Source: Sinohyriopsis cumingii
Lineage: Eukaryota > Mollusca > Bivalvia > Unionida > Unionidae
Direction: 5' to 3'
Assembly (NCBI GenBank): GCA_028554795.2
Contig: CM068830.1
Location: 110,993,214-111,057,213 of the forward strand
Length of the DNA stretch: 64,000 nt
Positions 23,669 through 43,562 of the stretch are shown piece after piece. The notes under the pieces are model-generated. The model worked only from the letters and a program-made list of their open reading frames with translations. It was not told where the DNA came from and did no database searches. The position numbers were made by a program, and so were the translations under genes. Position 1 is the first letter of the stretch. Every line of letters begins with the position of its first letter.

Positions 23669-24000
23669 AGTAGTAAATTGGGGCACTAGAGCGACAATGG
23701 GAATTAGCATTACAGACCCCCCTGGGCAAATATAGCGACAAGGGAAATTTAACATGGAGAAAAATCGTGGGCAAATATAGCGACAAGGGAAATTTAACAT
23801 GGAGAAAAAATCGTGGGCAAATATAGCGACAAGGGGAATTGAACATGGGGGGAATAAAGTGTGGGTCTATCTAGGGACAAGGGGGAATTGAACATGGGAT
23901 TTTTTTATTTTTTTTTAAATTTTTTTTTAAAAAAAGGGGTAGGCAATCCAAAGTCATTCTCTTTTCGAGAAATGTGGGTGGCCCTGAAAAGGGCCTTTGG
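23669..24000. repeat. Left terminal inverted repeat of the Polinton (332 bp)
   Basis: Inverse of 43,281-43,562. It contains three tandem copies of a 45-46-bp unit (gggcaaatatagcgacaagg...), against two in the right TIR, an A/T homopolymer-rich block, and, at its inner edge, a histone-type stem-loop. Confidence 0.95.
23980..23995 (-). terminator. Histone-type 3' stem-loop (in left TIR)
   Basis: On the minus strand it reads GGCCCT-TTTC-AGGGCC, preceded by ccaaa and followed by acccac, then cgaaaagagaa about 12 nt on. This equals the metazoan histone mRNA 3' stem-loop with ACCCA flank and a purine-rich downstream element. It begins 25 bp after the stop of the gene at 24,020. Confidence 0.85.
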
Positions 24001-24019
24001 CTTTCTTCTGCTTCTTCTT

Positions 24020-24505
24020 CTATTTCCTCCATTTCCTCATCCAGCCCCTAATCTTTCCCCAAATTCCCTTCTTCTTTCTCTTTTCATTTTCCGGTATCCA
24101 GTCCGGGTGACCCATGGCTCGGAACTTCTGTTGGATTTTTATCCAGTTATTGTTCAGTCTCTCGTATTCTTCTTTTTTCTTTCTATTCTCTTCTTCTTTT
24201 CTATCTTTTACCCACCTGTCTTTAATTTTCTGCACTTCTTCCTCTATTATCTTTTTCATCTTTTCTTCCGCTTTCTTTAATTGTTCACTGCCCCTTTTCA
24301 CGAATTTCCACTCTGACCATTTCTCTAGCTCTTCTAAATAACATCTCACTGCTTTTACCTTGTCCATAGACTCTTTTATAGTCCCCACTCTTACATACTC
24401 TGGTTGAATCAATCCTCTCAATCTCTTAACTTCTTCCTCTATCATCTCCTCTATCATCTTCCTCGCTAATTGTAGCTCATTGACATAGTCAAGACTTTTT
24501 CTCAA
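24020..24505 (-). CDS. Coiled-coil accessory protein, end-proximal gene 1
   Basis: A frame of about 160 residues, strongly charged and helical. It has LQLARKMIEEMIEEEVKRLR, then VGTIKESMDKVKAVRCYLEE and a long Lys/Glu-rich helix; it ends in a Trp- and Lys-rich tail (GIWGKIRGWMRKWRK). The listed start codon is TTG; the first ATG in frame is at 24,457 (MIEEMIEE), and no upstream ATG is found, so the true start is uncertain. It shares style and promoter-side repeats with the genes at 25,045 and 25,860, suggesting a tandemly expanded family. A histone-type stem-loop lies just after its stop. Function unknown. Confidence 0.5.
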   Translation of the reverse strand: MRKSLDYVNELQLARKMIEEMIEEEVKRLRGLIQPEYVRVGTIKESMDKVKAVRCYLEELEKWSEWKFVKRGSEQLKKAEEKMKKIIEEEVQKIKDRWVKDRKEEENRKKKEEYERLNNNWIKIQQKFRAMGHPDWIPENEKRKKKGIWGKIRGWMRKWRK

Positions 24506-25044
24506 CCTCCATTCTCTTTCTATCCTTTAATAGTATATTCTCCATCCATCATCCAAAAGTAAACATTTCTTAAGTCATTAAACAACGCCGACACTTCCAT
24601 CTTGTATCTGTTATTCCGTAGAATGGTTCAAACGACGAACGTGGTGGGTTCTTATAGTGAAAGCGCGGACGTGATGGAAAACATCCCCCTAAAAACATAA
24701 AATTGATCTTACCTAGATCATGACCAAACAACGCGCGGACGTGAAGGAAAACATCCCCCTACTTTCTCATTTCATATAATAAAACCCAAACTATACTCTC
24801 CACATACGCTAAGAAACAATTAAGAAACCCATAATCTACTATTCACACTAACATACCTGAGCTCTTACAAACACGAACACACAAACACATACCCTCACAC
24901 TATTAAAAAAGAGTTAGTGTTTATATTCACACTACTCTACCTACACACATTGGCAAATTGATGGTTATTTCTTTTCTAGAGTATTGGGTAGCCCTGAAAA
25001 GGGCTGTTGGTTTGTTTTTTTTTTTGAACTCCAGATGCACCTAT
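24506..25044 (-). promoter_or_regulatory. Duplicated upstream/downstream cassette between coiled-coil genes
   Basis: Holds two copies of gcgcggacgtga(t/a)ggaaaa (24,663 and 24,733), a block aaaacataaaattgatctta with cctagatcatgacc after it, and a block cactattaaaaaagagttag with caaattgatggttatttc after it. All recur in the next spacer (25,324-25,859). No gene. Confidence 0.6.
24990..25005 (-). terminator. Histone-type 3' stem-loop
   Basis: On the minus strand AGCCCT-TTTC-AGGGCT followed by acccaatactctagaaaagaa. The outer pair is A-T instead of G-C; the loop, the ACCCA flank and the downstream purine element are kept. It follows the stop of the gene at 25,045 by about 40 bp. Confidence 0.8.
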
Positions 25045-25323
25045 CTAATGATGGCACCTTCCTGGCCTGGCGCCACACACGCATCTTCTTCCCCAGTCTC
25101 CTTTCACCTTTCTTCTTGGGAGTGCAGAGGCGGGATATGTGGCTTCAGAATCCCAATTTTCTGTCTCTGGGATTCTGAAATTTCCTCTCTCCTCTTCTTT
25201 GTTTCTTCTCTCCTCCTCTTCTTTTCTTCTTCTTTCCTCCTCCTCCTCTTTCATTCTTACTTCTTCTAGAATGGCCTCCGCGGCCAGTTCATTTAGTATG
25301 CGCCTGGCATATTCCAGGTGCAT
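25045..25323 (-). CDS. Coiled-coil accessory protein, end-proximal gene 2
   Basis: 92 residues: MHLEYARRILNELAAEAILE, an Arg/Glu-rich helix (about residues 24-48), then a short tail with RCVCGARPGRC. The N-terminal half resembles the LxxARxxxxEL...EE pattern of its neighbour at 24,020. It is flanked upstream by the GCGCGGACGTGA repeat and downstream by a histone-type stem-loop. Function unknown; the low complexity lowers confidence that the protein is made. Confidence 0.45.
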   Translation of the reverse strand: MHLEYARRILNELAAEAILEEVRMKEEEEERRRKEEEERRNKEEERGNFRIPETENWDSEATYPASALPRRKVKGDWGRRCVCGARPGRCHH

Positions 25324-25859
25324 CTGGAGTTATAGCAGTTTCACAGTTCTGGTATTCATTGTTTTGTCAACGAATGAATAGGGTAGCTAGACTGTCCAGC
25401 GAGTTTCAATTTATAGTGAAAGCGCGGACGTGATGGAAATCATCCCCCTAAAAACATAAAATTGATCTTACCTAGATCATGACCAAAACAACGCGCGGAC
25501 CAAAAAGAAGCACTCACTCACTTTCTTAATACTACCCATCACTATTCTAAAAAATTTTATTAAACAAATAATATACTATCCACATACGCAAAACAATCCA
25601 ATCCAACCCCAAATCTACTCTCCCACACCTCAAACACCAAAAAAATAATCTTAATCTACTATCCACACCAACGTACGTGAGCTGTTACAAACACAAACAC
25701 ATACACTCACACTATTAAAAAAGAGTTAGTGTTTATATTCACACTACTCTACCTACACACATTGGCAAATTGATGGTTATTTCTTTTCTAGAGTATTTGG
25801 GGTAGCCCTGAAAAGGGCTGTTTTTTTTTTTGGTTTTTTTTGTTTGCTATGGCAATCTT
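25324..25859 (-). promoter_or_regulatory. Second copy of the duplicated spacer cassette
   Basis: Repeats the elements of 24,506-25,044: gcgcggacgtgatgg at 25,422, a truncated copy at 25,493, and the aaaaaagagttagtgtttat block at about 25,716. The second part ends in a histone-type stem-loop at 25,804-25,819. No gene. Confidence 0.6.
25804..25819 (-). terminator. Histone-type 3' stem-loop
   Basis: Minus strand AGCCCT-TTTC-AGGGCT followed by accccaaatactctagaaaag. It lies about 40 bp after the stop of the gene at 25,860. Confidence 0.8.
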
Positions 25860-26345
25860 TTAGTTTCTAAGAATGCGATGTCCTCTGAGGATAGATTTTC
25901 TGGCGATAGGTCTGCTTCTTCGGAAAGAGAAGAAGAACTCTTTGGTGTCGATACGACAATCGACAAAGCCTCTGTCAGCTTCAGGTTGCTGCTGCTGCTG
26001 TTGTTGTTGCTGCTGCTGCTGTTGCTGCTGTCTCTGAAGACTGTACTTCTCTGTCCATTCTTCTTTCTCCCTGTTCACTTCTTCTCTGAAGAGCTCTTCT
26101 ATGAGGTCTTCAGTGACTTTTAGCATTCTCACATTCTCTATCTCTTCTGGCTTTGGTATCAGACTGTGTCTGACCCTATGCAAATTCACGTAGGCTTCGT
26201 TTAGCTTAGCTAGTTTGGAGCACATCTTCGTAGGAGGATGAGTCGACAATGGATGGTTAGACTGGAAACAACCCCGGTTCTTAAAGTCAAAGCGCGGACG
26301 TGAAGGAAAACATCCCCCACACGGATTTCGAGCCGCAACGTTCAA
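25860..26345 (-). CDS. Poly-Gln coiled-coil accessory protein, end-proximal gene 3
   Basis: A frame of 161 residues; the likely start is the internal MCSKLAKLNEAYVNL (about 26,222), since the first 40 residues cover the GCGCGGACGTGA repeat (26,292-26,318). The protein has a helix with LKVTEDLIEELFREEVNREK, a run of about 15 Gln (interrupted CAG/CAA codons), and a basic tail (RSRPIARKSILRG). Related in design to the two neighbours at 24,020 and 25,045. It ends close to a histone-type stem-loop. Function unknown. Confidence 0.5.
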   Translation of the reverse strand: MNVAARNPCGGCFPSRPRFDFKNRGCFQSNHPLSTHPPTKMCSKLAKLNEAYVNLHRVRHSLIPKPEEIENVRMLKVTEDLIEELFREEVNREKEEWTEKYSLQRQQQQQQQQQQQQQQQPEADRGFVDCRIDTKEFFFSFRRSRPIARKSILRGHRILRN

Positions 26346-26520
26346 TGAGTGTCATGAGAGGAATAGTAAGAAGTGAAAGAGCATCAATCAAACATTCTTA
26401 TAGGCAAACGAACCACAATGTCATTTTTTTTCAAAACACAACATATTTTAACAATAATCCAACACTATAACATCAAACATTTTTTTCTTCAAATGACAAA
26501 CATTTTTTTGAATTCACACT

Positions 26521-27105
26521 CTACTTTAAACAGGGCTGACAAAGTTGTGAATGAAATTGTGATTTCCACTGTTGGAAATCATTAGGCCATTGATGGACAC
26601 TACGTTTCCTAGCTTGAGACAAAAGATAAGCATAATGGTCACAAAACCATCTGTCTACTTTCACATCGTTTCTTGAAGAAGAACGTGGATCAAAATGAGT
26701 CACTAAATGTTCTAAGGAATAGCCCAGGCTGCGATGATGCAGAAAATACACACAGTACTGTCCACACACCAAGGAATCTGTGCCTTGTAATTTCACATTA
26801 TTGAATCGGGTGGTCTGAGCATTTCTTCTCATAAAGTCGATGATATCGTCTTCCAAAGGAGGCAATCCGTACGAATCGAAATATTCCACACATCCTTCTT
26901 GAGGAAAGTAGACGGCTACCCAGTGGGTTCCTGGGAGATGACTGTCGTCCGTGTTGATCACATAAGCTTGATGGTCTTGAGGTTTGCGATGAGGGAGTTC
27001 ATCTTTAGCACAGACGACAGGATTCCAAGAAGCCGTATACGAACTGTGGTTCAAAAGGTAATAAAGTTCCCAGGTATCCATTTGTGTGGGTTTTTTTTTC
27101 TTCAC
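26521..27105 (-). CDS. PRO: Adenain-like cysteine protease
   Basis: 194 residues from 27,105; the preferred start may be M9 (MDTWELYYLL). The catalytic set of adenovirus-type proteases is complete: H61 in GTHWVAVYF, D77 in VEYFDSYG, Q107 in LQGTDSL and C114 in VCGQYCVYFL. By family it cleaves capsid precursors during maturation. It lies next to the hexon block, and its stop is followed by AT-rich DNA without a clear AATAAA. The frame is intact. Confidence 0.92.
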   Translation of the reverse strand: MKKKKPTQMDTWELYYLLNHSSYTASWNPVVCAKDELPHRKPQDHQAYVINTDDSHLPGTHWVAVYFPQEGCVEYFDSYGLPPLEDDIIDFMRRNAQTTRFNNVKLQGTDSLVCGQYCVYFLHHRSLGYSLEHLVTHFDPRSSSRNDVKVDRWFCDHYAYLLSQARKRSVHQWPNDFQQWKSQFHSQLCQPCLK

Positions 27106-27584
27106 AGGTAATAATAAGTCGTCAATTCGATCCTGACTTTTTGCTTGAAAATGTCTGACAAATAACCGTTTCTTCGTTTCGTCTCCTCACTCTGATTCAG
27201 AAGAGCTTCGATACGATGGATCTCTTGAGTGGTTAATGGTGGACAAGAATGTTCACGCAAGTCTTTATACCACTGGTGCCACACGTCTTCGTCCGAGATG
27301 AGACTCCAAGCTTCGTCCAGATACTCGTCCAATTTTTCTTCTTGACTCAACATCAGGCATTTATCGTGTTGAATTTGACTGGGATGATCGTTTTGACATC
27401 CATAGCAATTTTTCTTGATCAATTCCGTATTTTTTTCGGCCAAGTGTTTGGCAAAACAGCAGACTAAATGGGCTTCTTGTTCTGGCCATCTCGACTTCAT
27501 CATGATCACTTCTTCTTCCACAGTCTCCTCACATTCCATGTCTAAAGTTTCTCCACTAGGTAAAGAGGGATAACAGTCTTCCAT
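27102..27584 (-). CDS. Conserved Polinton protein with Cys/His zinc-binding motif
   Basis: 160 acidic residues. A Cys/His segment (NCYGCQNDHPSQIQHDKC) at about residues 58-76 probably binds zinc. The motif CxxC..HPSQ..H..C recurs in unnamed proteins placed next to hexon and protease genes in other Polintons (recall). The start ATG at 27,584 is 6 bp from the hexon stop. Its stop overlaps the protease frame. Function unknown. Confidence 0.65.
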   Translation of the reverse strand: MEDCYPSLPSGETLDMECEETVEEEVIMMKSRWPEQEAHLVCCFAKHLAEKNTELIKKNCYGCQNDHPSQIQHDKCLMLSQEEKLDEYLDEAWSLISDEDVWHQWYKDLREHSCPPLTTQEIHRIEALLNQSEETKRRNGYLSDIFKQKVRIELTTYYYL

Positions 27585-27589
27585 GGTTT

Positions 27590-28904: not shown

Positions 28905-28918
28905 TTTTTTCTGTTTTT

Positions 28919-29335: not shown

Positions 29336-29338
29336 GAC

Positions 29339-30223: not shown

Positions 30224-30266
30224 AGAACTGTCACTGGGTAAGTTTAAGTAAATTGGTTTTGGTGAC

Positions 30267-30686: not shown

Positions 30687-30691
30687 GATGG

Positions 30692-31802
30692 TCACTTCTT
30701 TTTATAGTCGATGATTTGCGAAGCGTCGATCCAAGAATCAAAACTGGGTGGATATCCTTTCCAACGTACTTTGACTTCTTTGACAAGTCGTTTGCCCACT
30801 TTACGGGTTCTGCGTTCGAGAATGTTTTCGATGTCGTACACGTCGTCTTCATTTTTGGTGACACGTTGTAACTCGGGCAAATAAAACGTTCCTTTGAGCA
30901 CTTCTCCGTTCATGTCTTCCAATTTATAGACGGCAGGATGACGGCCATGCACTCGTCCAGGGACGCGAAACAATTCGGTCGTCCTAGATAGGTAAGTAAC
31001 CTTTGTCGAAAGTGCGTTTGGTTTTGCCAATGCGCACCCAATCTCCTACGGCAAACATTCCACTTTTCTTGGGGACAGCCCTCGTCGGGGACGTACCAAA
31101 CAGGCGCTCAAACACCAACACTTCGCTGTCGGGAGTCACGTCTTGCGGGGCACGTCCGATGCTTCGATGGTAAGATTGGTTGTACGCTTGCACCAGGTGC
31201 GGTAAGATGTCGATGTACTTCAGAGTGTGGTGATGCGTAAAATATTTCCACATGAGTTCTTTCAAAGTGCGTTGAAAACGTTCCACGATGCTGACTTTGG
31301 TTTCTGGATTGTCGGTGGTAAAAAAATGAATGTCACGTTTCTTTAATTCTTTTTGGAAATCTTGATTCAGAAATTCGGTGCCTTTGTCCGTTTGCCATCG
31401 AAGAGGGTGACGACCGCTTTGTTTCAACACCCGTTGCAGGGCTCGCACTAACTCGCTGCTCGATTTGGAAGTCAAGGGCACGACCCAGGCAAATTTGGAA
31501 AAGACGTCGATGACACAAAACAAATATTTGTAGCCACGATTGTAGCTGGCCAAATGAGAGACATCGGCTAAATCGGCTTGCCATTGATGATCGATGCCTT
31601 CCACTCGGGTGCGACTTCTGGCAAACTTGCGTCGAATGGGTTTGTGTAAAGTGTAGGTAGCTTGTTCTTGTAACCATCGTTGCACTTGAGGTAAACGGAG
31701 ACTTTTCAGTCGAGTTTTGGCAGCACGATACAATTTTTGAACTCCTGCGTAACCTGCAGGATGCGAGGGATCGTAGTAAATGCTGGCTAAGACTTTTTCC
31801 AT
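30692..31802 (-). pseudogene. INT: Polinton integrase (DDE) with chromodomain, one frameshift
   Basis: The start is placed at the ATG at 31,802 (MEKVLASIYYDPSHPAGY). The rve core carries D in WQADLAD, D in RWQTDKGTEF and E in SIVERFQRT, with about 34 residues between the last two. An SH3-like segment (KSGMFAVGDWVRIGKT) leads to a break near 31,000. The chromodomain (VYDIENILERR and VKVRWKGYPPSFDSW) continues in another frame to 30,692. By family it inserts the element with a 6-bp target duplication, matching the atcgtg seen here; the chromodomain guides target choice. As it stands the two parts cannot be made as one chain without frameshifting. Confidence 0.93.
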
Positions 31803-31825
31803 TTTTTTTTGTGTTGGTTGGTGTG

Positions 31826-32428
31826 TTAATAAGGCACCCACTCTTGGAGGATGCTACTCTTTTTCTCTTGGGGTATTTTCTTGGAATGCAATGCTTTGCG
31901 TGTGCGACCGACAATAGGTGTTGAAGAGGAGGATGTCTGAGCGGGGGATATCGGTTCTTGTTTCACTTCTGTCTTCACTTCTGTCTTCACTTTCTTTTTC
32001 TCTTGTGATGAAGAAGGGGTGGCCATCATCTTTTTAATCCATCCAATTCTGGAGGTAGGTGGTGTTGTTAACTTGCGTACTTTTTCTGGTGGAGTTTGAA
32101 ACCCTTCTTCTTCTTCTTCTCCTTTATCTGTCTTGGTCACTGGTAGTGATGGTACTGGTACTGGTACTGGTACTGGTGATGGTGCTGGACTTTTCATCAA
32201 GGTCTTAAAATCTTTCAGAGTGGGTAGAGCTGTTTCGTCTAAAGCTTTCTGGTGAAAGAGTTGCAGTCGTGGCAAGAGTTGACCGTACATTTGCGATTTT
32301 TCTGTTTTGGACAAATCTTGGCGATCCATCAAGGACTGCAATTCGTGTTGTAACTGGGACACCTCGTTCAAATTGGGATTGGGAGGTAAATGCGGGGTGC
32401 GTTGTTCTTGCCACCGATGGTATTCCAT
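31826..32428 (-). CDS. Conserved Polinton polar protein preceding integrase
   Basis: 200 residues. The N-terminal helical part has LQHELQSLMDRQDLSKTEKS followed by YGQLLPRLQLF, a pattern (L..L..D..L...EK...Y...L.R) found in unnamed proteins before the integrase in many Polintons (recall). The rest is low complexity: (PV)n, acidic run, TPPEKVRKL and Lys-rich segments. Start MEYHRWQEQRTPHLPP at 32,428. Function unknown. Confidence 0.65.
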   Translation of the reverse strand: MEYHRWQEQRTPHLPPNPNLNEVSQLQHELQSLMDRQDLSKTEKSQMYGQLLPRLQLFHQKALDETALPTLKDFKTLMKSPAPSPVPVPVPVPSLPVTKTDKGEEEEEGFQTPPEKVRKLTTPPTSRIGWIKKMMATPSSSQEKKKVKTEVKTEVKQEPISPAQTSSSSTPIVGRTRKALHSKKIPQEKKSSILQEWVPY

Positions 32429-32477
32429 CCATCGTTTCTAAGTCACTAAAGCCAGTTTTCGTCCTTCCATGGGGTTG

Positions 32478-33948: not shown

Positions 33949-34683
33949 TTATGTGGAGTGAAATGAAGTCGAGGAAGGAGACGTGTACATGACAGGCCCT
34001 CCGTCTTGGCACCAGTGGTGAAACAAGTGGGTACGAAATCGCAAATCCTCGGGGGTCGTAGGTTTCAAATCGACGAGTAAATAGGCGTGTGGCGTTTGAG
34101 TGGCATCATCGTACGCCTGAGTCAGCCAAGGCGTTCCTAACTGTTTGGCTAAGACTTGCACTTGCGATTGATCTCGAGGGCTTTTAAACAAGACCACGTA
34201 ATGCGCATTGAGACTGATGGTGCGATGGGCTTTACTTTGTTGAAACAAATTTTGGGTGACACTGGCATTACGGTGATGCCCTTTGCGCGTGAACCACAGT
34301 TTAATTTCTTCTTCGTCTTCTCCTAACATGTTGTCAAAAATGACCAAATGGGTTTGACGGGAGTCAGAGACGATGCCGTCGTCTTCTTTAGGAATGCCTT
34401 CCACAAACACGATGGAATCGCCTTGACTTTCTCGCAAGAGGCTGTACGCCGATTGCCACTCTTTGTAACACCACACGATCCGCTGAGGTGGTCGATCGAT
34501 CAAATGATGTTTATGTTCAATCAAGCGTTTGACGAATTCGGTTTTGCCTGAACCGCTAGGTCCAGCAATGAGCATGTTATAGGGATGGCGAAGATACAAA
34601 GCCTCCCAACTGGCACGATCTAAGTGTTCGTCGATGACTTTGACAGTAGAGGAAGAGGGAGCAGAGACAGCAGAGGTAGCCAT
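33949..34683 (-). CDS. ATP: Genome-packaging ATPase (FtsK/HerA type)
   Basis: 244 residues, frame intact. Walker A is G41 to T48 in LIAGPSGSGKTEF; Walker B ends at D117 in HLVIFDNMLGE (the second acidic residue is Asn). A conserved Q/N sensor follows in SVTQNLFQQ. By family it pumps viral DNA into capsids and is a core Polinton gene. It starts at 34,683 with TATA at 34,730-34,737. A fragmentary copy is at 14.8-15.6 kb. Confidence 0.92.
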   Translation of the reverse strand: MATSAVSAPSSSTVKVIDEHLDRASWEALYLRHPYNMLIAGPSGSGKTEFVKRLIEHKHHLIDRPPQRIVWCYKEWQSAYSLLRESQGDSIVFVEGIPKEDDGIVSDSRQTHLVIFDNMLGEDEEEIKLWFTRKGHHRNASVTQNLFQQSKAHRTISLNAHYVVLFKSPRDQSQVQVLAKQLGTPWLTQAYDDATQTPHAYLLVDLKPTTPEDLRFRTHLFHHWCQDGGPVMYTSPSSTSFHST

Positions 34684-34753: not shown

Positions 34754-34759
34754 TTTATT
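34754..34759 (-). terminator. Poly(A) signal for the small C-tail membrane gene
   Basis: Minus strand aataaa, 8 bp after the stop codon at 34,767. This shows that some genes of the element use ordinary polyadenylation, in contrast to the end genes with histone-type stem-loops. Confidence 0.6.
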
Positions 34760-34766
34760 GAATGTT

Positions 34767-35160: not shown

Positions 35161-35244
35161 GTCTGTTAAGGTCGAGAAGTATCCAGATGAAAACGCAAGG
35201 CTTTGAGCAAAAGGAGTTTTTCGTGACCATTTAAGGCCATGGAG

Positions 35245-35923
35245 GTGGTAAGTACTGATCGTAAAGAGTCCACAAAGAATCGGCTGGTAAACGAAATCCC
35301 AGAAAACAAGTCACTAAGACACACACCACTTGTCGACCCAAATTGAATGGATACAGTTCTTGTAATAATCGATGGTAATGATCCACGGTTTGAATATGGT
35401 CATTGAGTTCCTTCCACGGATCTGTTCAATAATATGTGACATAATCCGTGGCATGGCAACTTGATTTTATAGTGTCTTTGTTTCGGAAGCAATAAAGGTA
35501 ATTTCTAACTAAACATGTTCGTTCTCCAGTAGGGAATTTAAATGTTACATACTGTAACTGAAACGTCAGAGTTTGTCTAGATGTTTCGTCTTTTTCTAAG
35601 CAGATTCCATGTAACAAATGTTGGTAATCCTTTAACTCGTCTTCCTCAATACGTTGCAGTAAGTGAATCTCGAAGTAACCAAAATTACGAACGTCTAGTT
35701 CATCATCATTCACAAACTGAAAGTGTTCAACAAGGTCTGACCACTGAAAAAATTTCTGACGAATCAGTCCTCTTATACCTTTCAGGCACCAGTGGTTAAA
35801 GATCTGGTGACGTAACGGATGCAATTGTTCTTTACGTTTCACTTGTATTTTCACCAGTTCTCGGTAAATCCTTTCTCTCAACTCCTCAGGCAAGCCCAAA
35901 ATGTTCTCTTGTAAAGTATCCAT
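35245..35923 (-). pseudogene. F-box-like family protein, copy 3, with in-frame TGA
   Basis: Starts at the ATG at 35,923 (MDTLQENILGLPEELRERIY). The N-terminal LPeELReRIYrELvkI segment resembles the first helices of an F-box; the body has paired helices and scattered Cys. A TGA at 35,426-35,428 ends the open frame after 165 residues. The same frame continues open for 60 codons to 35,245 with sequence conserved in element B (16.25-16.4 kb), so the stop is probably a mutation, or less likely a readthrough site. Target of any ubiquitin-ligase role unknown. Confidence 0.55.
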
Positions 35924-36158
35924 AAGTATATACACTGTTTTTGGAATTCTTGGGTGGTGGCCAATAGCCTCGTTTACCCTTGTGCCTGATGTAATATCCA
36001 CTCATAATCAGTCTTCTTATACTTTGAAACAGAGCATAATTTAAAAACGGTTCAATAACTTTGAGTTTGCGTTTCACTTGTATTTTGATCAGTTCTCGGT
36101 AAATGCGTTCTCTCAACTCCACAGGCAAAGCACGAATGTTCTCTAGCAAAGTATCCAT
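35886..36158 (-). CDS. F-box-like family protein, copy 2 (short)
   Basis: 90 residues beginning MDTLLENIRALPVELRERIY; the shared N-terminus (about 32 residues) is followed by a diverged, truncated body. It overlaps the start of copy 3 in another frame, so it is probably a collapsed duplicate. Confidence 0.5.
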   Translation of the reverse strand: MDTLLENIRALPVELRERIYRELIKIQVKRKLKVIEPFLNYALFQSIRRLIMSGYYIRHKGKRGYWPPPKNSKNSVYTYGYFTREHFGLA

Positions 36159-36170
36159 GAATAGGTCATA

Positions 36171-36629
36171 CTAAATCCTCTTTGGTCTGACACAAGAAAT
36201 GTACTCTTTGCACAAACATGGTTTTACTTCAGTGTCGAATTTAAATCGTTTAGTCACTAATCTACACATTACAATTCGTTCAGAAGTTTCCTCTTTCACT
36301 AAGTTGACATTTTGTTCAAGATGTTGGTAATTCGTTAACTCTTCCTCTGGAATTCGATGCAGTAAGTTTACAATGATGTAGTAGATAGAATGGTCCATAA
36401 CAAACCAATCCTTTTTAAAACTAGGGGATCGTTGATCAATGTCTGTCCAATGGAACACTTTCAATTGAATCAATCCTTGTATAGCCTTCAGGTACCAGTG
36501 GTTCAAACACCGGTGACGTAACAGATGCAATTGTTCTTTACGTTTCACTTGTATTTTCACCAGCTCTCGGTAAATGCGTTCTCTCAACTCCACAGGCAAA
36601 GCACGAATGTTCTCTTGTAAAGTATCCAT
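36171..36629 (-). CDS. F-box-like family protein, copy 1
   Basis: 152 residues, start at 36,629 (MDTLQENIRALPVELRERIY). About 60 N-terminal residues are nearly identical to copy 3, including KIQVKRKEQLH and LRHR..NHWYLK. The rest diverges but keeps LLHRI.EEEL.NYQHL and a Cys-containing tail. Tandem duplication is evident. N-terminal F-box-like assignment is tentative; Polinton accessory genes here may act on host ubiquitin pathways (inference). Confidence 0.6.
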   Translation of the reverse strand: MDTLQENIRALPVELRERIYRELVKIQVKRKEQLHLLRHRCLNHWYLKAIQGLIQLKVFHWTDIDQRSPSFKKDWFVMDHSIYYIIVNLLHRIPEEELTNYQHLEQNVNLVKEETSERIVMCRLVTKRFKFDTEVKPCLCKEYISCVRPKRI

Positions 36630-36651
36630 GAACAGATTATGGTAAGTTACT

Positions 36652-37289
36652 TCAATGTGTCGGTCCCACTAAGGGTAAGTAATGACAATTCGGTGACCAT
36701 CGAGCATGTTTTACGTAGGCCGAATCTTGCGGTTCCCAGTAATGAGAGACACACCCCAACTGAAGCACTTGACTTTATCTCCTTCGCCCAAGTAGAAAAA
36801 TCCGGCTCTGGCTAATTCTTCAGGGGTCGGTCCTCCCAGATACTTAGGCCATTTTCCTTTGAACGATTGAAGACGATTTTCAAAGTCGCAGTATTCCGAC
36901 AAACGCACAGGAAACGAATATTCGTCTTTCACAGGTTCGTTTCGATGAGGGTTGAGTGACATGGGCAGGAGTTTGCTCAGGGCTGGATGACATCCGTAGG
37001 GGGGTAGACGTGAAGGTGAACATTCCCCTTTAAAACGAAACCCAGTAAAATGTCCAAGAGGACGAGCGGCATCACTTTCGCATCCCTCAGGTTTGACACG
37101 CACAACATCCCTTTCCATGATAGGGGTAGTGAGAACAAAGTTCCCATGATGCTTTACGGCATCGCTAAGGTCACAACGTACAGCATCGTACCCATAGCAA
37201 GGCTCACAATAGCATTCCACTTCAGAAGCCTCACACTTGAATTGTGCCTTTCTAAACAACTTGTTTTGTGTTTCTCTGAAAGTATTCAT
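36652..37289 (-). pseudogene. BIR-domain (IAP-like) protein, frameshifted within the BIR
   Basis: The open frame (192 residues, to 36,711) has a Cys-rich N-terminal part (CYCEPCYGYDAVRC) and, at about residues 139-180, the first half of a BIR domain: RLQSFKGKWP, PEELARAGFFYLGEGDKV and CFSWG (Trp replaces the second zinc Cys). The remaining BIR half, with the zinc-ligand His and Cys, lies in another frame at about 36,738-36,652 (WEPQDSAYVKHARW). The element-B copy near 17.2 kb keeps these parts in one frame, pointing to a one-base deletion near 36,740. By family, BIR proteins block caspases or bind apoptosis regulators. A TATA box sits in the PolB 3' end. Confidence 0.75.
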
Positions 37290-37334
37290 CTTGTTCGCTC
37301 GGTCTTGGTAGTCCCAATGAACTAACGATCTTGC

Positions 37335-40300
37335 CTAGGGTTCCTTTTTTATATACAGACCAATACCGACGTGTCCATACGGTAAGGTGAAATGATTGGG
37401 AAGTCGCACTCGCTTCTGGTACACGATCTGATAGACTTTTTCCAAGGGCCGACTGACGATGTGGTGAGTGGGTAAACGTACAATCTTGTTCGGTTGATAG
37501 GTGGTCACTTTAAAGTTTCCATCCTCTCCCGATTGCAAGGCTTCTTTCAATACCCCAAAGTTGACCACACGACTGGTACGATAATTCAGAGTTAGTCCTT
37601 TCACTTTGCACGTCGTGTGCACTTCTCCTTGTTTGTCACGGTATTCGTAGCCGTAATTTTTGGGACCGCCACTGACGAAACTTAGAATCTTGTCGTCGGG
37701 ATGCTCGTCTGTCCAGGCTCCTAAACGGTCTCCTTCGATGTCAGGGTGCTGTTGACTCGGGTGATGGATGTAAATGCAACTGTCCGTGTCAAAGTACAGG
37801 ACACGTTCCCCTAACAGCTCTAAAGCTTCGTACAATTTTAAGCGAGCATGAGCTGTCACGTAATCCGCAATAATGACATTTCCAAAGGGGTCGTTTTGTA
37901 AAAAGTCCAGATCTTCTTCGTAATTCACGACAATCAAATCTTCGCGAACGACGTCCACGTGTTTCATGAATTTAGTTTTGTCGTGAATCATCTGGAAGTA
38001 GCGGGAAGGTTCTGTCAAATATTCAGTCTTGGGTAAACACGGTCGTTGCGCCATTTTACCCCACAAGCAATTTAACATCACTTTGGCAAACGACCGCCTG
38101 CCTTCGTTTTTCTCGATGTGGTCTAAAGTGATGCCTTCTTGTTCATAGTATTTCTCTTTGAATTGTATTTGGTCTTCGGGAGTGTGACACCAGGAAGGAT
38201 AGCCGCTGGCTTCTTGTTTCAGTTTCAAAAAGGCATCCACGTAGTCGGCGAAAATGCCTTTCTGACTGGGATCACCCTTGTGGTATTGTTGTGTCTTGGG
38301 AAAGTGGCAAATTTCGTACACTTCTAACAGTTGGTATCCCATGTCCAGAGCTTTGAACAATTCTACGCTGACCCAGGTTCTCGTCAAGGCACGTTCTTCC
38401 TGGGTGTGCTGGCAAGGTTGGTCTTGGTTGCACGTTTCGGCACAAGTACGGCACAATGGAAACATCAGTTTGCCTTGACAATGGTGAGGTAAGACGGGAT
38501 GGTATAGGTTCGTGGGAGGCAAAACTTTACACTTGATCAAGCCTTCGTATTGTCGAATGTTTTTCAGGTCGATGTGTTCCGTTAACAATTGCGGGTGCCC
38601 TGCAGGAAAGCGACAATATTTGCACACGTAGGGATACAGCGAACACACGTCCAAGTATTTGATTTCTTCTCCTTTCTCTTCGTCGGCTTGGTACAGCAAA
38701 CAGGTGGCATTGGTCCTTCCTCCGTACAAACTATCCCTCGGGTTCAACCGGTCCATGAACTGGTAACTTTCCACGAGGCCTTTAAACTCGGGATCGGTTT
38801 TCATACGGTGATCGTACTCGTGTTCCCACATTTCCACCACTTGGTATCCTTGCTGTTCTAACTTTAGGCGTCGCTGACAAGTGTCCTGGTACAAGTCTTC
38901 CATGGTTCGTTGCAAAAACTGATTATTAGTGCCACGGTCAGGGTAACAGACGGGACATCCGTGAAATAAGCAACCGTTAAACTCGTACACAATCTTGGGG
39001 TTTTCCAAGTCCCAGCCATCGACCGAATACGTTCCGATGGTCTTTTCACCCCCTCCGTTGCGAGCATGTTGAATCCACTTGTCTTCCTTGTCGCACAAGT
39101 AATGTAACCAGCGTAGGGCTTTGACCGAGTATTGACGTTTGACATAGTGGGTCGTTTGAGGGCTGATGACAGCTACGGTGTTTTCAGGCATGAATCGTTG
39201 CCGGTACACTAAGGAACACGCTTTGGCAATGGTGCAAGCTTCTTTCAAAGGATCGACCCCTCCGTGTTCCATGAACAGTTCTCGAAATTTTCCACAGCAA
39301 CGCCGTAAAATGTCCACGTCGGAACGACAATACTTTAGCATTTCTTCCTGAAAGTCGAAAGGGTCCAAGGCGTGAGCCTGGTACCAAGCGTAGAAAGCTT
39401 CTCGTTGTTCGGTACGCATGTTGTCGGGGTCGTAATAGTGAGCCTCAGGTAAATGGGGTAGAACGGCGTGTTGATTGGCTTCCGTATTGAAAAAGTGTGG
39501 AAAGTACCCTTTAGCCATTTCTGTCATTCCAAACGTTTTAGGCATTCGACTCAAAGGCATGGCCAAATAGCTCATCGAATCTTTAAACTGTACTTGTCCC
39601 ACTTGCATGAAAATGATTTTGGCTCCGTTCAAAGTCACTTTAGGACGTTCGTTGCCTTGCTCCGTATAGTATCTGAGAAGAAACTGTCCATCGTATCCGG
39701 AGAAATTGTGAGCCATCACCGTGGCATGACGATGACAATCTCCGTAACGTTCGATGTCCTTTTGGCTCCACGTCTTGTCGATGGGGTCTAAGACCCATTG
39801 GGCAAAATCGGCTAACGTGTTCGGTCCCCGAAAGATTTTTTCCCGCCCTCCGGGAATCTTACTGCAGTGAGGGCAATGACTGAAAATAGGTTCTTGAATG
39901 CGCTTTTCGCACGCTCGATGAGCCACGAAGAAATTAGGAATGTGAATGCCAGTCTCTTGCATGCATTGGAAATCGAAAAAGAGGAAATTGCCTTTCTTCT
40001 TGTGACCATCCTCTTTCTCTGGTTGGGGTTGGTATTTTTGCACGTAGCATTGGTGTTCCAAGTCCACGATGTGGTGACAAATGTGACATTTTTTCTTTCC
40101 TCGACATACGTGTGCTTTGGTACTATTGGTACGTATGCCTTGTCCACAGGTAGGACACAGTCTCAGCAGTTGACAAGCACATTTCTGCTGTGAACCTTGC
40201 GTCTTCAGATGTTGTTGGTAACAGGTAGGGCTGACAAACATGCGCAGACAAGTTGAACAAGGCACTGGTCCTTCGCTCACACAGGGTGCAGAGGCCAAAC

Positions 40301-41369
40301 ATCCTGAGCATTTCAATCCACAATGCTTGTGTTGCTCTGGATTATTATGGCCATAGTCACATTTCTCACAGTAATAACTGTATCCCAGGAATCCAGTGAT
40401 ACTGGTAATGGTATCGAAATGGTCATCGTGATAATAGACATGAATGTATTTTCCGTCCTTAAAGTCTTGGCCTCGAAACAACAGAGGTCCGCGCACTTCT
40501 TGAGGGTGCACTTTCAAGGTGTATCGTGGAGCTAGGACATCTTGCAATTTTTGCATCTCAGGAATGCCACAGGGTGTGTCTTTGGACAGTCCGGCTTGTT
40601 GTAACAGGAGTTCTGCTTCGTTTCGCTGTTTGGCTCGATCGGATCGTTGAATAGTTTTCCAGGCTCTTTTCCATTCTGCCGTGTCGTTCTTGTTGGCATA
40701 GGTTCGTCCCACCACGATGGCTCGAGCTAAACACATCTGGTCTTGAGGACTGTGAATTTGGACAAGGCTACGCTTAATGCTGCTAAGCTCGTTCACCAAT
40801 AACATCTTTTTGCGTCCGGTCCCTTGAGGAGGAGAGACGTGGGTCATGTCCAATGTGGCTTTTCCATCGGTGATGCCAAACTGGTCATTAGATTGTTGCA
40901 CGTGTTGAATCTTGTCCTTGACTTTGGAAGCGGTCAATTCTGCAGGGGTGCTAAACTCGATCAAAACAGGGGATTTCAAACCGTCATGTTGTATGGAAAG
41001 TCTCAAGCGATCGTCTTCTTTGGGTTGACATTGTCGCTTGAGTGCGGTGAGCAAAGAATCCCACACCCCAGTGATGAACACTTCTGCTTTCTCTAACGGT
41101 AATTCAGCCTTGAAATCTTTAAACTTCACTGTGTATTTTCTAGAGGAGCGCTTTTCCGTCTCTCGAATGGAATAGTAATTTTCAGGGTTGACTAAGGGTG
41201 GTGAACTTGGTTTAGAGGGTTCGGATTCTGGTTCACTCATGTCCTCTTCAAAATCACTGGCATGAATTTGTGCCAAGACTTCAGCCCTGGTACGAGGCGA
41301 TAGATCACGTTTCTGCCTCTTTCTTTCTTCTTCTTCATCTTTCTTCTCGAATGAATAGGATCGTTTCAT
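37335..41369 (-). CDS. POLB: Protein-primed family B DNA polymerase of the Polinton
   Basis: 1344 residues, uninterrupted. The N-terminal 280 residues are polar and include LARAIVVGRTYANKND, common in Polinton polymerases (recall). Residues about 335-445 hold several CxxC zinc-type motifs (YCEKCDYGHN; LKCSGCLASAPC). Exonuclease motifs: Exo I FFDFQC (D466; the usual Glu is Gln468), Exo II HNFSGYDGQF (D560), Exo III YCRSDVD (D684). Polymerase motifs: A LDVCSLYP (D907), B KVMLNCLWGK (K1096), C YFDTDS (D1194, D1196), and GGPKNYGY (KxY). It replicates the element using a terminal protein. The Gln at Exo I (codon caa) may abolish proofreading. Confidence 0.97.
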   Translation of the reverse strand: MKRSYSFEKKDEEEERKRQKRDLSPRTRAEVLAQIHASDFEEDMSEPESEPSKPSSPPLVNPENYYSIRETEKRSSRKYTVKFKDFKAELPLEKAEVFITGVWDSLLTALKRQCQPKEDDRLRLSIQHDGLKSPVLIEFSTPAELTASKVKDKIQHVQQSNDQFGITDGKATLDMTHVSPPQGTGRKKMLLVNELSSIKRSLVQIHSPQDQMCLARAIVVGRTYANKNDTAEWKRAWKTIQRSDRAKQRNEAELLLQQAGLSKDTPCGIPEMQKLQDVLAPRYTLKVHPQEVRGPLLFRGQDFKDGKYIHVYYHDDHFDTITSITGFLGYSYYCEKCDYGHNNPEQHKHCGLKCSGCLASAPCVSEGPVPCSTCLRMFVSPTCYQQHLKTQGSQQKCACQLLRLCPTCGQGIRTNSTKAHVCRGKKKCHICHHIVDLEHQCYVQKYQPQPEKEDGHKKKGNFLFFDFQCMQETGIHIPNFFVAHRACEKRIQEPIFSHCPHCSKIPGGREKIFRGPNTLADFAQWVLDPIDKTWSQKDIERYGDCHRHATVMAHNFSGYDGQFLLRYYTEQGNERPKVTLNGAKIIFMQVGQVQFKDSMSYLAMPLSRMPKTFGMTEMAKGYFPHFFNTEANQHAVLPHLPEAHYYDPDNMRTEQREAFYAWYQAHALDPFDFQEEMLKYCRSDVDILRRCCGKFRELFMEHGGVDPLKEACTIAKACSLVYRQRFMPENTVAVISPQTTHYVKRQYSVKALRWLHYLCDKEDKWIQHARNGGGEKTIGTYSVDGWDLENPKIVYEFNGCLFHGCPVCYPDRGTNNQFLQRTMEDLYQDTCQRRLKLEQQGYQVVEMWEHEYDHRMKTDPEFKGLVESYQFMDRLNPRDSLYGGRTNATCLLYQADEEKGEEIKYLDVCSLYPYVCKYCRFPAGHPQLLTEHIDLKNIRQYEGLIKCKVLPPTNLYHPVLPHHCQGKLMFPLCRTCAETCNQDQPCQHTQEERALTRTWVSVELFKALDMGYQLLEVYEICHFPKTQQYHKGDPSQKGIFADYVDAFLKLKQEASGYPSWCHTPEDQIQFKEKYYEQEGITLDHIEKNEGRRSFAKVMLNCLWGKMAQRPCLPKTEYLTEPSRYFQMIHDKTKFMKHVDVVREDLIVVNYEEDLDFLQNDPFGNVIIADYVTAHARLKLYEALELLGERVLYFDTDSCIYIHHPSQQHPDIEGDRLGAWTDEHPDDKILSFVSGGPKNYGYEYRDKQGEVHTTCKVKGLTLNYRTSRVVNFGVLKEALQSGEDGNFKVTTYQPNKIVRLPTHHIVSRPLEKVYQIVYQKRVRLPNHFTLPYGHVGIGLYIKKEP
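37345..37355 (-). promoter_or_regulatory. TATA box for the BIR gene, inside the PolB 3' end
   Basis: Minus strand tatataaaaaa encodes the YIKK end of PolB and lies about 60 bp before the ATG at 37,289, so coding and promoter sequence coincide. Confidence 0.5.
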
Positions 41370-41415
41370 CTTGAGTGAAAAACGTCAAATGACTCAAGTT
41401 TAAACACCATAGACT

Positions 41416-41450
41416 AATTTATAGTCATGGCAGACCAGCGTATATAAAAA
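41416..41450. promoter_or_regulatory. Divergent promoters of PolB and the zinc-knuckle gene
   Basis: Minus strand tataaatt at 41,416-41,423 lies about 50 bp before the PolB ATG (41,369). Plus strand tatataaaaa at 41,441-41,450 lies about 55 bp before the ATG at 41,504. The two TATA boxes are back to back within 35 bp. Confidence 0.65.
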
Positions 41451-41503
41451 GGTGTGTGTCTTGCCCTTTCACTATTCATTTCACTCTCAAACCGAGCACA
41501 ACG

Positions 41504-41964
41504 ATGGAATAGACTAGCCAAATCGAACGTTTCGTCAGAGCTTTGCGAGGGGTCATTAGAAAATTCTCTTCAGACCAGCCCACGGACTACTCTCCTTCCT
41601 TTCGAGATAAAAGTCAAGATACTTGCTATATCTGTCAGAAGAAAGGGCATTGGTCTTCAGAGTGTCCAGACCGTCTAAAAAGAAAAAAGGGGCTAAAAAA
41701 GACAGAAGTCAAGATACCTGTTATTATTGTCAAGAAAAAGGACATTGGTCTCCAGATTGCCCAAAAAAGAAACAAGAGGAGTCAGAAGAAAAGAGGGATT
41801 CTTCAGAAGAGAGGGATTCTTCAGAGGAAGAAGAGGAAGAAAGAAGACAATTCTATTTACAAGAGGCAAAGAAAAAGAAACAGGAGAAGAAAAGAAGAAG
41901 GGAAAAAAGTGAGGAGGAGGAAGAGGAAAAGACGGTGAAGAAATTGAAAAAACAGAGAGACTAA
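41504..41964 (+). pseudogene. Two-CCHC zinc-knuckle protein with early stop and frame change
   Basis: From the ATG at 41,504 the third codon is TAG. The frame then stays open and encodes VRALRGVIRKFSSDQP and a first CCHC knuckle (CYICQKKGHWSSEC). A second knuckle (CYYCQEKGHWSPDC) and a Ser/Glu- then Lys/Glu-rich tail to 41,964 lie in the -1 frame. The frames overlap at A-runs (41,669-41,700) that include an A AAA AAG heptamer in the first frame. Either two indels or a -1 ribosomal frameshift is possible. CCHC knuckles bind single-stranded RNA or DNA. An aataaa follows at 42,045. Confidence 0.6.
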
Positions 41965-42044
41965 ACAATGAAACAGAAGAAGTTAATGAACTTTTTAAAG
42001 TGTTCTGTTGTGAATTGTGAATTGGATTGTTAATATTTATAAAG

Positions 42045-42050
42045 AATAAA
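42045..42050 (+). terminator. Poly(A) signal for the zinc-knuckle gene
   Basis: aataaa on the plus strand 80 bp after the stop at 41,964. Confidence 0.55.
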
Positions 42051-42195
42051 TTAATGATATAAGGTAAGTGTCTTTGAGTTTTGATTTTAAAATAAGAAGC
42101 TACACTCACGCACTCATATACACGTAATATAGGGGTAAAATGTTTTTTTGAGTTATTGGCAATTGAAATTGTATTTCTTTTCGAGAGAAGTGGGT

Positions 42196-42211
42196 GGCCC
42201 TGGAAAGGGCC
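42196..42211 (-). terminator. Histone-type 3' stem-loop
   Basis: Minus strand GGCCCT-TTCC-AGGGCC followed by acccacttctctcgaaaagaaa. The stem, ACCCA flank and purine element are intact; the loop has one change. It lies about 20 bp after the stop of the gene at 42,233. Confidence 0.8.
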
Positions 42212-42232
42212 TTTTTTGGTGAAGGGGTGAGT

Positions 42233-42769
42233 TTAAGCAATCAACTTTAACTGCCTTAAGCCTTTGCCACGGCCGAGGCCTACTTCTGGACTGCGTACTG
42301 TTGATGATGATGATTTGGTTGAAATCACTAAGGGTGGTACGATAGGCTTAGTCACAGGGTTGACGTGTTTAGCTCGGGAAGGTCGTATTCTCTTCCGTCG
42401 TAATAAAGAAGTCTGATACATTTGTTTCAGACTTCTTAACTCCGCTAAAATGTCCAACAGTACCGTGACCGTTTGATTTTCACCCTCTTGTTTCTTTGCT
42501 GCTACTTCTTCTTCTTCTTGTTGCTGTTGTTTTTTTCTTACCTCTTCTTCTTGCTGCTGTTGCTGTAGGAGAAAAGCTTGTTCCGCTTCCTTTTGTCGTT
42601 GCATAAATTTCTCCAATTCTTCTTTCTGTCTCTGTCTAAAATTCTCCACTTGCGGTAATGAAGAAGGTAACGAAGGTTCCGGAACAAATTCTTGCGAGGT
42701 AAGAAAATCCACAAAATCCCAATTTACCTCTTCTGAAAGTAAGTCCGGGTTCCCTTGGGTGGTCTCCAC
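42233..42769 (-). CDS. Gln/Glu-rich coiled-coil protein near the right end
   Basis: 178 residues, start METTQGNPDLLSEEVNWDFV at 42,769. The middle (about residues 45-100) is a long Gln/Glu/Lys coiled coil (RQRQKEELEKFMQRQKEAEQ); the C-terminus is basic and Pro/Ser-rich, ending in GRGKGLRQLKL. The acidic, hydrophobic N-terminus (WDFVDFLTS) could serve as an activation-type segment, but this is a guess. It has a TATA-like sequence at 42,860-42,866 and a histone-type stem-loop after its stop. Confidence 0.6.
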   Translation of the reverse strand: METTQGNPDLLSEEVNWDFVDFLTSQEFVPEPSLPSSLPQVENFRQRQKEELEKFMQRQKEAEQAFLLQQQQQEEEVRKKQQQQEEEEVAAKKQEGENQTVTVLLDILAELRSLKQMYQTSLLRRKRIRPSRAKHVNPVTKPIVPPLVISTKSSSSTVRSPEVGLGRGKGLRQLKLIA

Positions 42770-42859
42770 TGCTGGTGCACCCCAATGAATCGTTTTCTGA
42801 GTTTCCGTCTTGTTGAATCACTGTCACATAGATTGACTGCACACAGGCGCTAGCGAATC

Positions 42860-42986
42860 TATATAGACCACGTGACGTCACAAACTGCTCTCTTCGGATT
42901 GGATGCGGGCTGACTGAATTTTGTAACGCGTGTTCGGATTGGTGAATGAACTCAATCCGTTTCAATCCTTCCTCTACCTATAAATA
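42860..42986. promoter_or_regulatory. Bidirectional promoter with E-box/CRE and CCAAT boxes
   Basis: Minus-strand TATA-like ctatata at 42,860-42,866 (for 42,769) and plus-strand tataaata at 42,979-42,986 (for 43,031) flank cacgtgacgtca (42,869-42,880), where an E-box cacgtg overlaps a cAMP-response-type tgacgtca. Two inverted CCAAT boxes (cggattgg) lie at about 42,895 and 42,934. Confidence 0.55.
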
Positions 42987-43030
42987 AGCGCAGTTCACTG
43001 CATTGATTCACCTGTTCTCGTCGCTTCAAG

Positions 43031-43261
43031 ATGTGGACCACAGTCGAATCATCCATCCTTGTGTCTTCCATGATGTTTAGGACGGACATGCTCATGTATA
43101 TCCGGTCCAAGTGGACCGTTGTCGACAAGTCAGATACCAGTCTGTGGATACGAAGAGTGTATGTAGAAAGACAAGGTTGCCTCAAGAGGACACTGATTTA
43201 TGGCCCTCGAGTAAGACGCAGCTTGAGGACAAGAAGATGCCGCAGATGCCCTTTATGTTAA
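43031..43261 (+). CDS. Small basic Cys/Arg protein, right-end gene
   Basis: 76 residues, MWTTVESSILVSSMMFRTDM to RVRRSLRTRRCRRCPLC, with an Arg-rich C-terminus. Support comes from context: a TATA box 50 bp upstream and a perfect histone-type stem-loop 25 bp after the stop. The reverse strand is also open over 42,952-43,185 but lacks these signals. Function unknown. Confidence 0.5.
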   Translation: MWTTVESSILVSSMMFRTDMLMYIRSKWTVVDKSDTSLWIRRVYVERQGCLKRTLIYGPRVRRSLRTRRCRRCPLC

Positions 43262-43280
43262 TGGATACATTAACATAAAA

Positions 43281-43562
43281 CCAAAGGCCCTTTTCAGGGC
43301 CACCCACATTTCTCGAAAAGAGAATGACTTTGGATTGCCTACCCCTTTTTTTTAAAAAAAATTTTTAAAAAAAAAAATCCCATGTTCAATTCCCCCTTGT
43401 CCCTAGATAGACCCACACTTTATTCCCCCCATGTTCAATTCCCCTTGTCGCTATATTTGCCCACGATTTTTCTCCATGTTAAATTTCCCTTGTCGCTATA
43501 TTTGCCCAGGGGGGTCTGCAATGCTAATTCCCATTGTCGCTCTAGTGCCCCACTTTACTACT
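43281..43562. repeat. Right terminal inverted repeat of the Polinton (282 bp)
   Basis: Inverse of 23,669-24,000, with one 45-46-bp tandem unit fewer. Ends actact at 43,562. Confidence 0.95.
43286..43301 (+). terminator. Histone-type 3' stem-loop (in right TIR)
   Basis: Plus strand ccaaa-GGCCCT-TTTC-AGGGCC-acccacatttctcgaaaagag. Stem (6 bp), TTTC loop, 5' CCAAA and 3' ACCCA flanks all equal the animal histone mRNA consensus. Confidence 0.9.

Follow-up and report, generated by a model that had tools for sequence, protein, structure and literature searches.

A bivalve Polinton whose terminal genes carry the signals of replication-dependent histone genes

The Polinton described here, from Sinohyriopsis cumingii, carries at both of its ends short genes that finish in the hairpin and downstream element of replication-dependent histone genes, and the genes of the left end also have a histone-type promoter element. 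These signals match those of the host's own histone genes, are conserved among copies of the element, and keep their strand, their place and their order within the cassettes. We consider it probable that the terminal genes are organized as replication-dependent histone transcription units, from which host factors would make S-phase mRNAs without poly(A).

From these signals we infer factor binding, cleavage, the absence of poly(A) and S-phase timing, in the following steps. First, the three left-end genes (A, B and C) would be turned on by host histone transcription factors as S phase begins. Second, SLBP would bind the hairpin in the mRNAs of these genes and of the two right-end genes (D and E), and the U7 snRNP would pair with the GAAAAGA element. 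Third, CPSF73 would cleave a few bases 3′ of the hairpin. The mRNAs of genes A–E would then carry the hairpin in place of poly(A), would be stable and translated during DNA replication, and would decay once replication stops. Because such mRNAs would be coupled to S phase, we propose that the A–E proteins may be made when the element's own DNA can be copied.

No description of histone-type transcription units in Polintons was found in the literature searched, and to our knowledge none exists for such units at Polinton ends. We lean towards regarding the transcripts of genes A–E as the first animal non-histone protein-coding mRNAs with histone-type ends, probably transcribed in S phase together with those of histones, though here our confidence is modest. 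If true, Polinton genes would be tied to the phase in which the host copies its DNA, with messages lacking the usual poly(A) tail, and the coordination of Polinton expression with host DNA synthesis would become open to direct test. Such mRNAs would escape RNA-seq that relies on poly(A) selection, and current estimates of how strongly these elements are expressed may therefore be too low.

The element and its terminal genes

The window (i.e., the whole 64-kb stretch of DNA analysed) contains the Polinton at positions 23,669–43,562 (19,894 bp), recognized by its terminal inverted repeats (TIRs), its flanks, and matches to DNA polymerase B (PolB), an rve integrase and a chromo domain. A 6-bp target duplication, ATCGTG, lies on either side (23,663–23,668 and 43,563–43,568). 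The predicted polymerase (1,344 aa; 37,335–41,369, − strand) matches PF03175 (E = 1e-40), a family match that points to the protein-primed type of PolB expected of a Polinton. The integrase and chromo-domain frames lie at 30,692–31,841 (− strand; PF00665, 1.7e-14; PF00385, 1.4e-8). Two further genes are candidates, with matches below curated cut-offs: a packaging-type ATPase at 33,949–34,683 (− strand; FtsK, 8.3e-5, and Pox_A32, 9.4e-5, both slightly below) and an adenovirus-type protease at 26,521–27,081 (− strand; PF00770, E = 0.009). The element shares with Polinton/Maverick transposons the TIRs, the 6-bp target duplication, PolB, the rve integrase, and the candidate ATPase and protease; it differs from them in that both of its ends carry histone-type transcription units. 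Compared with IMG/VR viral contigs, PolB found two distant loci (25–26% identity) when used as an alignment and no relative when used as a single query. None of the frames submitted from 26.5–34.7 kb gave a Pfam match to a double jelly-roll (DJR) major capsid protein; by eye, the frames at ~27.6–28.9 kb could represent a disrupted gene for such a protein. A second Polinton-like element in the window (roughly 740–9,685) has a DJR capsid protein above the cut-off and a protease match below it; RF00032 finds nothing in it at E ≤ 1, and the promoter 23-mer (see below) is absent at ≤3 mismatches.

Three of the terminal genes lie at the left end. Gene A (24,020–24,457, − strand) encodes a charged protein of 145 aa (pN 0.15, pS 0.51; 66 pairs, 12 loci); many of its relatives are longer at the start. 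Gene B (25,045–25,323, − strand) encodes 92 aa (pN 0.17, pS 0.44; 105 pairs, 15 loci), and gene C (25,860–26,225, − strand) a glutamine-rich protein of 121 aa with a close relative at locus L107. At the right end, gene D (42,233–42,769, − strand) is a 178-codon open frame (pN 0.039, pS 0.075) that begins at GTG, its start in the present copy lacking ATG; it has 20 related database proteins. Gene E (43,031–43,261, + strand) encodes a basic protein of 76 aa (pN 0.050, pS 0.257; 120 pairs, 16 loci) with one database relative. The starts of genes A, B and D appear altered in the present copy. No histone domain or family was found among the Pfam matches of the five products. Genes A–E would be histone-gene-like in operation, yet they are not histone genes.

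Hairpins and downstream elements at the 3′ ends

The initial annotation had placed five histone-type hairpins shortly 3′ of the stop codons of terminal genes, each followed by a purine element, had read them as histone-type 3′ ends, and had proposed a search with the Rfam histone model. All five hairpins were confirmed in position and strand, they start 22–41 nt downstream of the stop codon, and RF00032 matches every one. The hairpins of gene A (23,980–23,995, − strand, in the left TIR) and gene E (43,286–43,301, + strand, in the right TIR) both score 40.8 bits, above the cut-off of 34 bits. Those of gene B (24,990–25,005, − strand; 31.7 bits, E = 3.3e-5), gene C (25,804–25,819, − strand; 31.4 bits, E = 4.4e-5) and gene D (42,196–42,211, − strand; 29.0 bits, E = 3.4e-4) score below it. 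Each of the five has a 6-bp stem and a 4-nt loop and fits the covariance model, which gave no further match at E ≤ 1 elsewhere in the window. A search with the hairpin pattern, allowing ≤2 mismatches, likewise returned only these five in 64 kb (0.06 expected; none of 100 shuffles reached five). In IMG/VR, the exact hairpin pattern had a single match (L009), antisense within an open frame, which we took to be chance.

Since two of the five hairpins lie inside the TIRs, they might be imagined to act in the DNA, in replication start, packaging or end recognition, with the likeness to histone ends being secondary. We regard this as extremely unlikely. The other three are not in the TIRs, every hairpin is on the coding strand of its gene directly past the stop, and such a role would leave a one-sided downstream element and a histone promoter without function.

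The downstream element has a GAAAAG core, set 13 nt beyond the hairpin in genes A (23,961–23,966, − strand), B (24,971–24,976, − strand), D (42,177–42,182, − strand) and E (43,315–43,320, + strand), and 15 nt after it in gene C (25,783–25,788, − strand). The window has four perfect 6-bp/4-nt hairpins followed by GAAAAG at 13 nt; when its sequence was shuffled 11,664 times within 200-base blocks, the mean count was 0.015. We located the histone genes of the host itself in its genome, and they support the histone-type reading, with matching hairpin, spacing and downstream element: GAAAAG follows their hairpins at 13 nt (H3, H4 and H2B) or 14 nt (H2A and H1), and the hairpins stand 28–39 nt from the stop codon. 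By sequence and spacing, then, the downstream element of genes A–E appears to be that of the host's histone genes. With metazoan replication-dependent histone genes the Polinton genes share the hairpin sequence and loop, the 13-nt spacing to GAAAAG, a short 3′ UTR, and short intronless frames; they differ in that their products have no detected histone domain and that they reside on a mobile element. A report on the clam Lucina describes purine-rich elements in some histone genes only, at other positions (PMC6210712).

The host U7 RNA was sought in two ways. The Rfam U7 model gave no matches, as it did in every control genome. The pattern TCTTTT(0–12)AATTTGTCTWG gave 208 matches, against 104 in a reversed control; among the 100 of these that were listed, none of the 26 loci inspected (10 + 16) has a U7-like 3′ hairpin. 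The same holds for a match inside the host histone unit (inspected loci L072–L074), which is part of a palindrome and was rejected as a candidate.

We think that host SLBP and U7 most likely form the ends of the A–E mRNAs, which would lack poly(A) and be made in S phase. The mRNAs could instead be polyadenylated mostly further downstream, the hairpin's main role then being to bind SLBP for mRNA stability or translation. AATAAA follows the gene A hairpin by 71 nt and the gene C hairpin by 243 nt, and both kinds of 3′ end are known for H2A.X mRNA, according to one report (PMC7807067). By contrast, neither AATAAA nor ATTAAA occurs within 300 nt past the hairpins of genes B, D and E, and the downstream element, of use only in U7 cleavage, is kept at constant spacing; we judge such dual use unlikely. 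The claim that other genes of the element have AATAAA stood in part: counting AATAAA or ATTAAA within 400 nt after the stop, it applies to 3 of the 19 non-hairpin genes and fails for the rest, while hairpin genes A and C have a signal too. These counts weakly suggest that two 3′-end modes coexist in one element.

The promoter element and copies in the host genome

Upstream of genes A, B and C lies a 23-mer, GATGTTTTCCATCACGTCCGCGC. The gene A site (24,663–24,685, − strand) is identical at 23/23 nt to the host H2B promoter; a second copy upstream of gene A (24,733–24,755, − strand), the gene B site (25,422–25,444, − strand) and the gene C site (26,292–26,314, − strand) have one mismatch each. 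Host H1 also has one mismatch, and an inverted copy at H2A has four. These four sites are the only ones in the window, every one ahead of a hairpin gene, such that the element is found in three of the five hairpin genes and in none of the 19 other genes of the window (p = 0.005). A TATA-like box stands beside it in genes A–C, an arrangement these three share with metazoan replication-dependent histone genes. Having a histone-type promoter element as well as a histone-type 3′ end, the left-end genes imitate a replication-dependent histone gene at its start and at its finish. Among other left ends, 17 of 18 have the promoter element at ≤4 mismatches. Genes D and E lack it; their upstream regions were considered as histone-like promoters and rejected, with only CCAAT and TATA boxes and 6 shared 9-mers (4.7 by shuffle).

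The core of the element, ACGTCCGC, fits what we take to be the HINFP site. HINFP acts on replication-independent H1 genes as well, as stated for human cells in one paper, and a HINFP-type site alone is therefore no proof of S-phase control (PMC5283814). The 3′ ends might be histone-type while the promoter element is in general use in the host and uninformative on S phase. The promoter pattern does occur 30,558 times in the genome (0 in a reversed control). However, 88 of the first 100 of these places are clustered, with the spacing of genes A–C. Of 88 promoter places in the first 6.4 Mb, 47 have an exact hairpin–GAAAAG unit downstream on the same strand, compared with none on the opposite strand (the other 41 have no exact same-strand unit within 1 kb downstream). 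In addition, ACGTCCGC occurs three times in the 9.9-kb host histone unit, upstream of H2B, H1 and H2A. We find a general promoter rather doubtful.

Exact Polinton-type hairpin–GAAAAG units number 32,065 in the host genome, with none in a reversed control. If our reading is true, tens of thousands of sites may compete with the host histone genes, both for SLBP and U7 and for the promoter factor. The many natural variants within one genome also offer material for studies of SLBP, U7 and histone-promoter recognition. Such numbers also suit a different account, in which capture of histone flanks brought the signals in, or replication and gene conversion spread them over thousands of elements, and they have no function now. 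Most copies were fetched with the TIR hairpins, the most uniform ones, as bait, and copies could also stay alike through gene conversion. Four observations make passenger status very unlikely: (i) half of the synonymous sites differ among gene A relatives while hairpin and spacing are constant, a comparison biased by the bait; (ii) the gene B hairpin, never itself used as bait, ranks in the top 2.3% of 16-mers by conservation in a test of inner hairpins of the left end; (iii) 14 of the 75 units at 44 end loci have a paired stem change; (iv) the likeness to host histone genes is limited to working motifs, and the bases 3′ of the hairpin, ACCCA or ACCCC in the Polinton, differ from those of the present host's histone genes (ACACA, ACAAA, ATACA or ACTTT). 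Across the same 75 units, 74 have a spacing of 13 within a search range of 10–16. At the one locus that was picked by the promoter alone and read, all three of three cassettes are complete.

Histone-type 3′-end signals in a Polinton

The Polinton occupies positions 23,669–43,562 (19,894 bp), with inverted ends and a 6-bp duplication, ATCGTG. It encodes a DNA polymerase B (PF03175, 1e-40), an rve integrase (1.7e-14) and a chromo domain (1.4e-8); matches to an A32/FtsK ATPase and an adenovirus-type protease fall below curated cut-offs. Among polymerase relatives with an organism name, the nearest are from oysters (47–50% identity); closer relatives exist. The element also carries a BIR (inhibitor of apoptosis) domain gene (36711–37289; PF00653, 2.1e-10) and a tandem trio of related genes (35725–36645; repeat families D1 and D2), whose proteins start with MDTL-ENI-LP-ELRERIYREL; the one protein of the three that was scanned had no Pfam match. 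A zinc-knuckle gene (41,505–41,964) appears altered in this copy, having longer relatives in other Polinton copies, and the starts of genes A, B and D appear altered as well.

The initial annotation placed histone-type hairpins after five genes, and all five hairpins were confirmed: 23980–23995 (gene A, 24020–24457), 24990–25005 (B, 25045–25323), 25804–25819 (C, 25860–26225) and 42196–42211 (D, 42233–42769), all on the minus strand, and 43286–43301 (E, 43031–43261) on the plus strand. The products of these genes are not histones, and none matched a Pfam family over cut-off. All five sites match the Rfam histone 3′ stem-loop model, RF00032: both sites in the terminal inverted repeats (TIRs; A and E) score 40.8 bits, over the cut-off of 34, and the other three score below it (31.7, 31.4 and 29.0 bits). 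No other match at E≤1 was found in the 64-kb window, including a second Polinton-like element (740–9685, plus strand) that encodes a double jelly-roll capsid protein (PF21738, 5e-19) and an HNH endonuclease (2.4e-16) and has a weak match to a protease. The hairpins lie 22–41 nt past the stop codons and are followed by GAAAAG, at 13 nt for A, B, D and E and at 15 nt for C; the window holds four perfect hairpins with GAAAAG at a 13-nt spacing, where 0.015 would be expected. AATAAA lies 71 nt downstream of the hairpin for gene A and 243 nt for gene C.

As a yardstick, we searched the host genome (2.9 Gb, 1,138 contigs), which contains a full histone cluster, organized as a tandem unit of ~8.3 kb (150 matches scored among 662 candidates). 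In one or more units, the H3, H4, H2B and H2A ends read GGCCCTTTTNAGGGCC and the H1 end reads GGTCCTTTTCAGGACC. These hairpins lie 28–39 nt past the stop and score 35.0–39.4 bits, lower than the Polinton TIR sites. Because GAAAAG follows at 13 nt (H3, H4, H2B) or 14 nt (H2A, H1), the Polinton sites fit the host's particular downstream element; the initial annotation could not have known that element. By eye, a second stretch ~12 nt further downstream looks common to host H2A (CAATTTTGCC) and the Polinton (CAATTTGCC and CAATTGCC). No U7 snRNA was identified in the host genome by Rfam model or by inspection of 26 loci and a histone-unit site among 208 pattern matches; the model was also silent in control genomes.

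A promoter element shared with host histone genes

Gene A (with two copies), gene B and gene C are each preceded by GATGTTTTCCATCACGTCCGCGC or a variant differing at one base; in three places a TATA-like box comes no more than about 6 nt later. Within 3 mismatches, this 23-mer occurs four times in 64 kb, each time before a hairpin gene; it precedes 3/5 hairpin genes versus 0/19 others on the gene list (p=0.005). Host H2B carries the identical 23-mer, beginning 107 bp before the start codon; the H1 version differs at one base, H2A is preceded by an inverted version with four differences, H4 has only GGTCCGCGCG, and H3 has nothing comparable. This animal's H2B, H1 and (inverted) H2A promoters share a long motif of 23 nt, as at positions 4121–7235 of L072, a histone unit. 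Among the paper titles listed, none was relevant to a long histone promoter motif in bivalves. The core of the element, ACGTCCGC, presumably fits the HINFP site. PMC5283814 reports HINFP at two replication-independent H1 genes in human cells as well as close to the start sites of human H4 and H2B genes.

Genes D and E lack the 23-mer. They diverge from a shared stretch (42770–43030) with three CCAAT boxes, TATA-like boxes and a palindrome, GTGACGTCAC, an arrangement reminiscent of divergent H2A/H2B histone pairs.

Copies across the host genome

RF00032 gave at least 75 scored matches in the host genome; the 14 loci retrieved from among these each match this Polinton's ends. In a set of 38 end loci (L001–L008 and L010–L039; 19 left, 19 right; two of them this element's own), the promoter element was found within 4 mismatches at 18 of the 19 left ends, this Polinton's included (L034 lacks it), and at one right end, L032. 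A search of 44 end loci for hairpins with at least five pairs, GAAAAG being required at 10–16 nt, gave 76 units, one of which was judged a chance match. Spacing is 13 nt in 74 of the remaining 75, whose stems comprise 50 GGCCC/GGGCC, 14 with the paired change AGCCC/GGGCT, five with G-U wobble only and six with at least one mismatch.

The Polinton-type unit pattern (GCCCTTTTCAGGGCYACC, 10–12 nt, GAAAAG) occurs 32,065 times in the host genome (reversed control, 0) and fits 0/5 host histone ends. Matches to the promoter pattern, GATGTTTTCMWTCACGTCCGCGC, number 30,558 (control, 0), host H2B and H1 copies included. These exact matches, >30,000 to the promoter and 32,000 to the 3′ unit, point to well over ten thousand Polinton ends within this one animal genome. 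The first 100 promoter places, those that were listed, fall into 45 same-strand groups, with 88 in groups of at least two; gaps of 69–77, 662–747 and 806–938 bp, plus ten of 1.2–2.1 kb, are much like the layout of genes A–C. Of the 88 promoter places in the first 6.4 Mb, 47 are followed on their own strand by an exact unit no more than 1 kb away (43 at 392–498 bp), none has one on the opposite strand, and 41 have none at all. L107, the first listed group and the only one retrieved, was picked by promoter alone. It holds three consecutive cassettes, each ordered promoter, TATA-like box, open frame, stop, hairpin 25–28 nt on and GAAAAG at 13 or 14 nt; in the third, AGCCA replaces ACCCA.

In animals, as outlined in PMC1924863 and PMC7614891, the hairpin is bound by SLBP, the downstream element base-pairs with U7 and CPSF73 cuts 3–6 nt past the hairpin, leaving an mRNA without poly(A). 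Because the host's own signals are present and suitably spaced, the most straightforward reading of the sequence is that mRNAs of genes A–E would be processed by this host route, without poly(A), and that genes A–C would be transcribed along with the host histone genes. We consider this reading likely, and no more than likely since three of the five sites fall below the Rfam cut-off and an exact unit is missing from roughly half of the promoter places. To our knowledge, histone-type transcription units have not been described in Polintons. A search of open-licence PMC full texts likewise turned up no such description; each component is known, and what seems new on that search is their occurrence together in a mobile element.

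Conservation of genes and hairpins

Gene A relatives (12 loci) are as little as 56% identical (pS 0.51, pN 0.15). A hairpin lies within 130 nt past the stop in 11 of these 12 (at the end locus L008 the frame runs through it), as it does for gene B (14/15), gene E (16/16) and gene D (12/18, several frames being truncated). At another end locus, L002, the hairpin after gene E lacks a GAAAAG behind it. Because they served as bait for these loci, the TIR hairpins are biased witnesses of conservation. The gene B hairpin, which did not serve as bait, has a mean column identity of 0.91 versus 0.76 overall, a value attained by 2.3% of interior 16-mers. For gene D, all 20 relatives in the databases lie on short contigs (925–2,286 bases) from metagenome-type sources.
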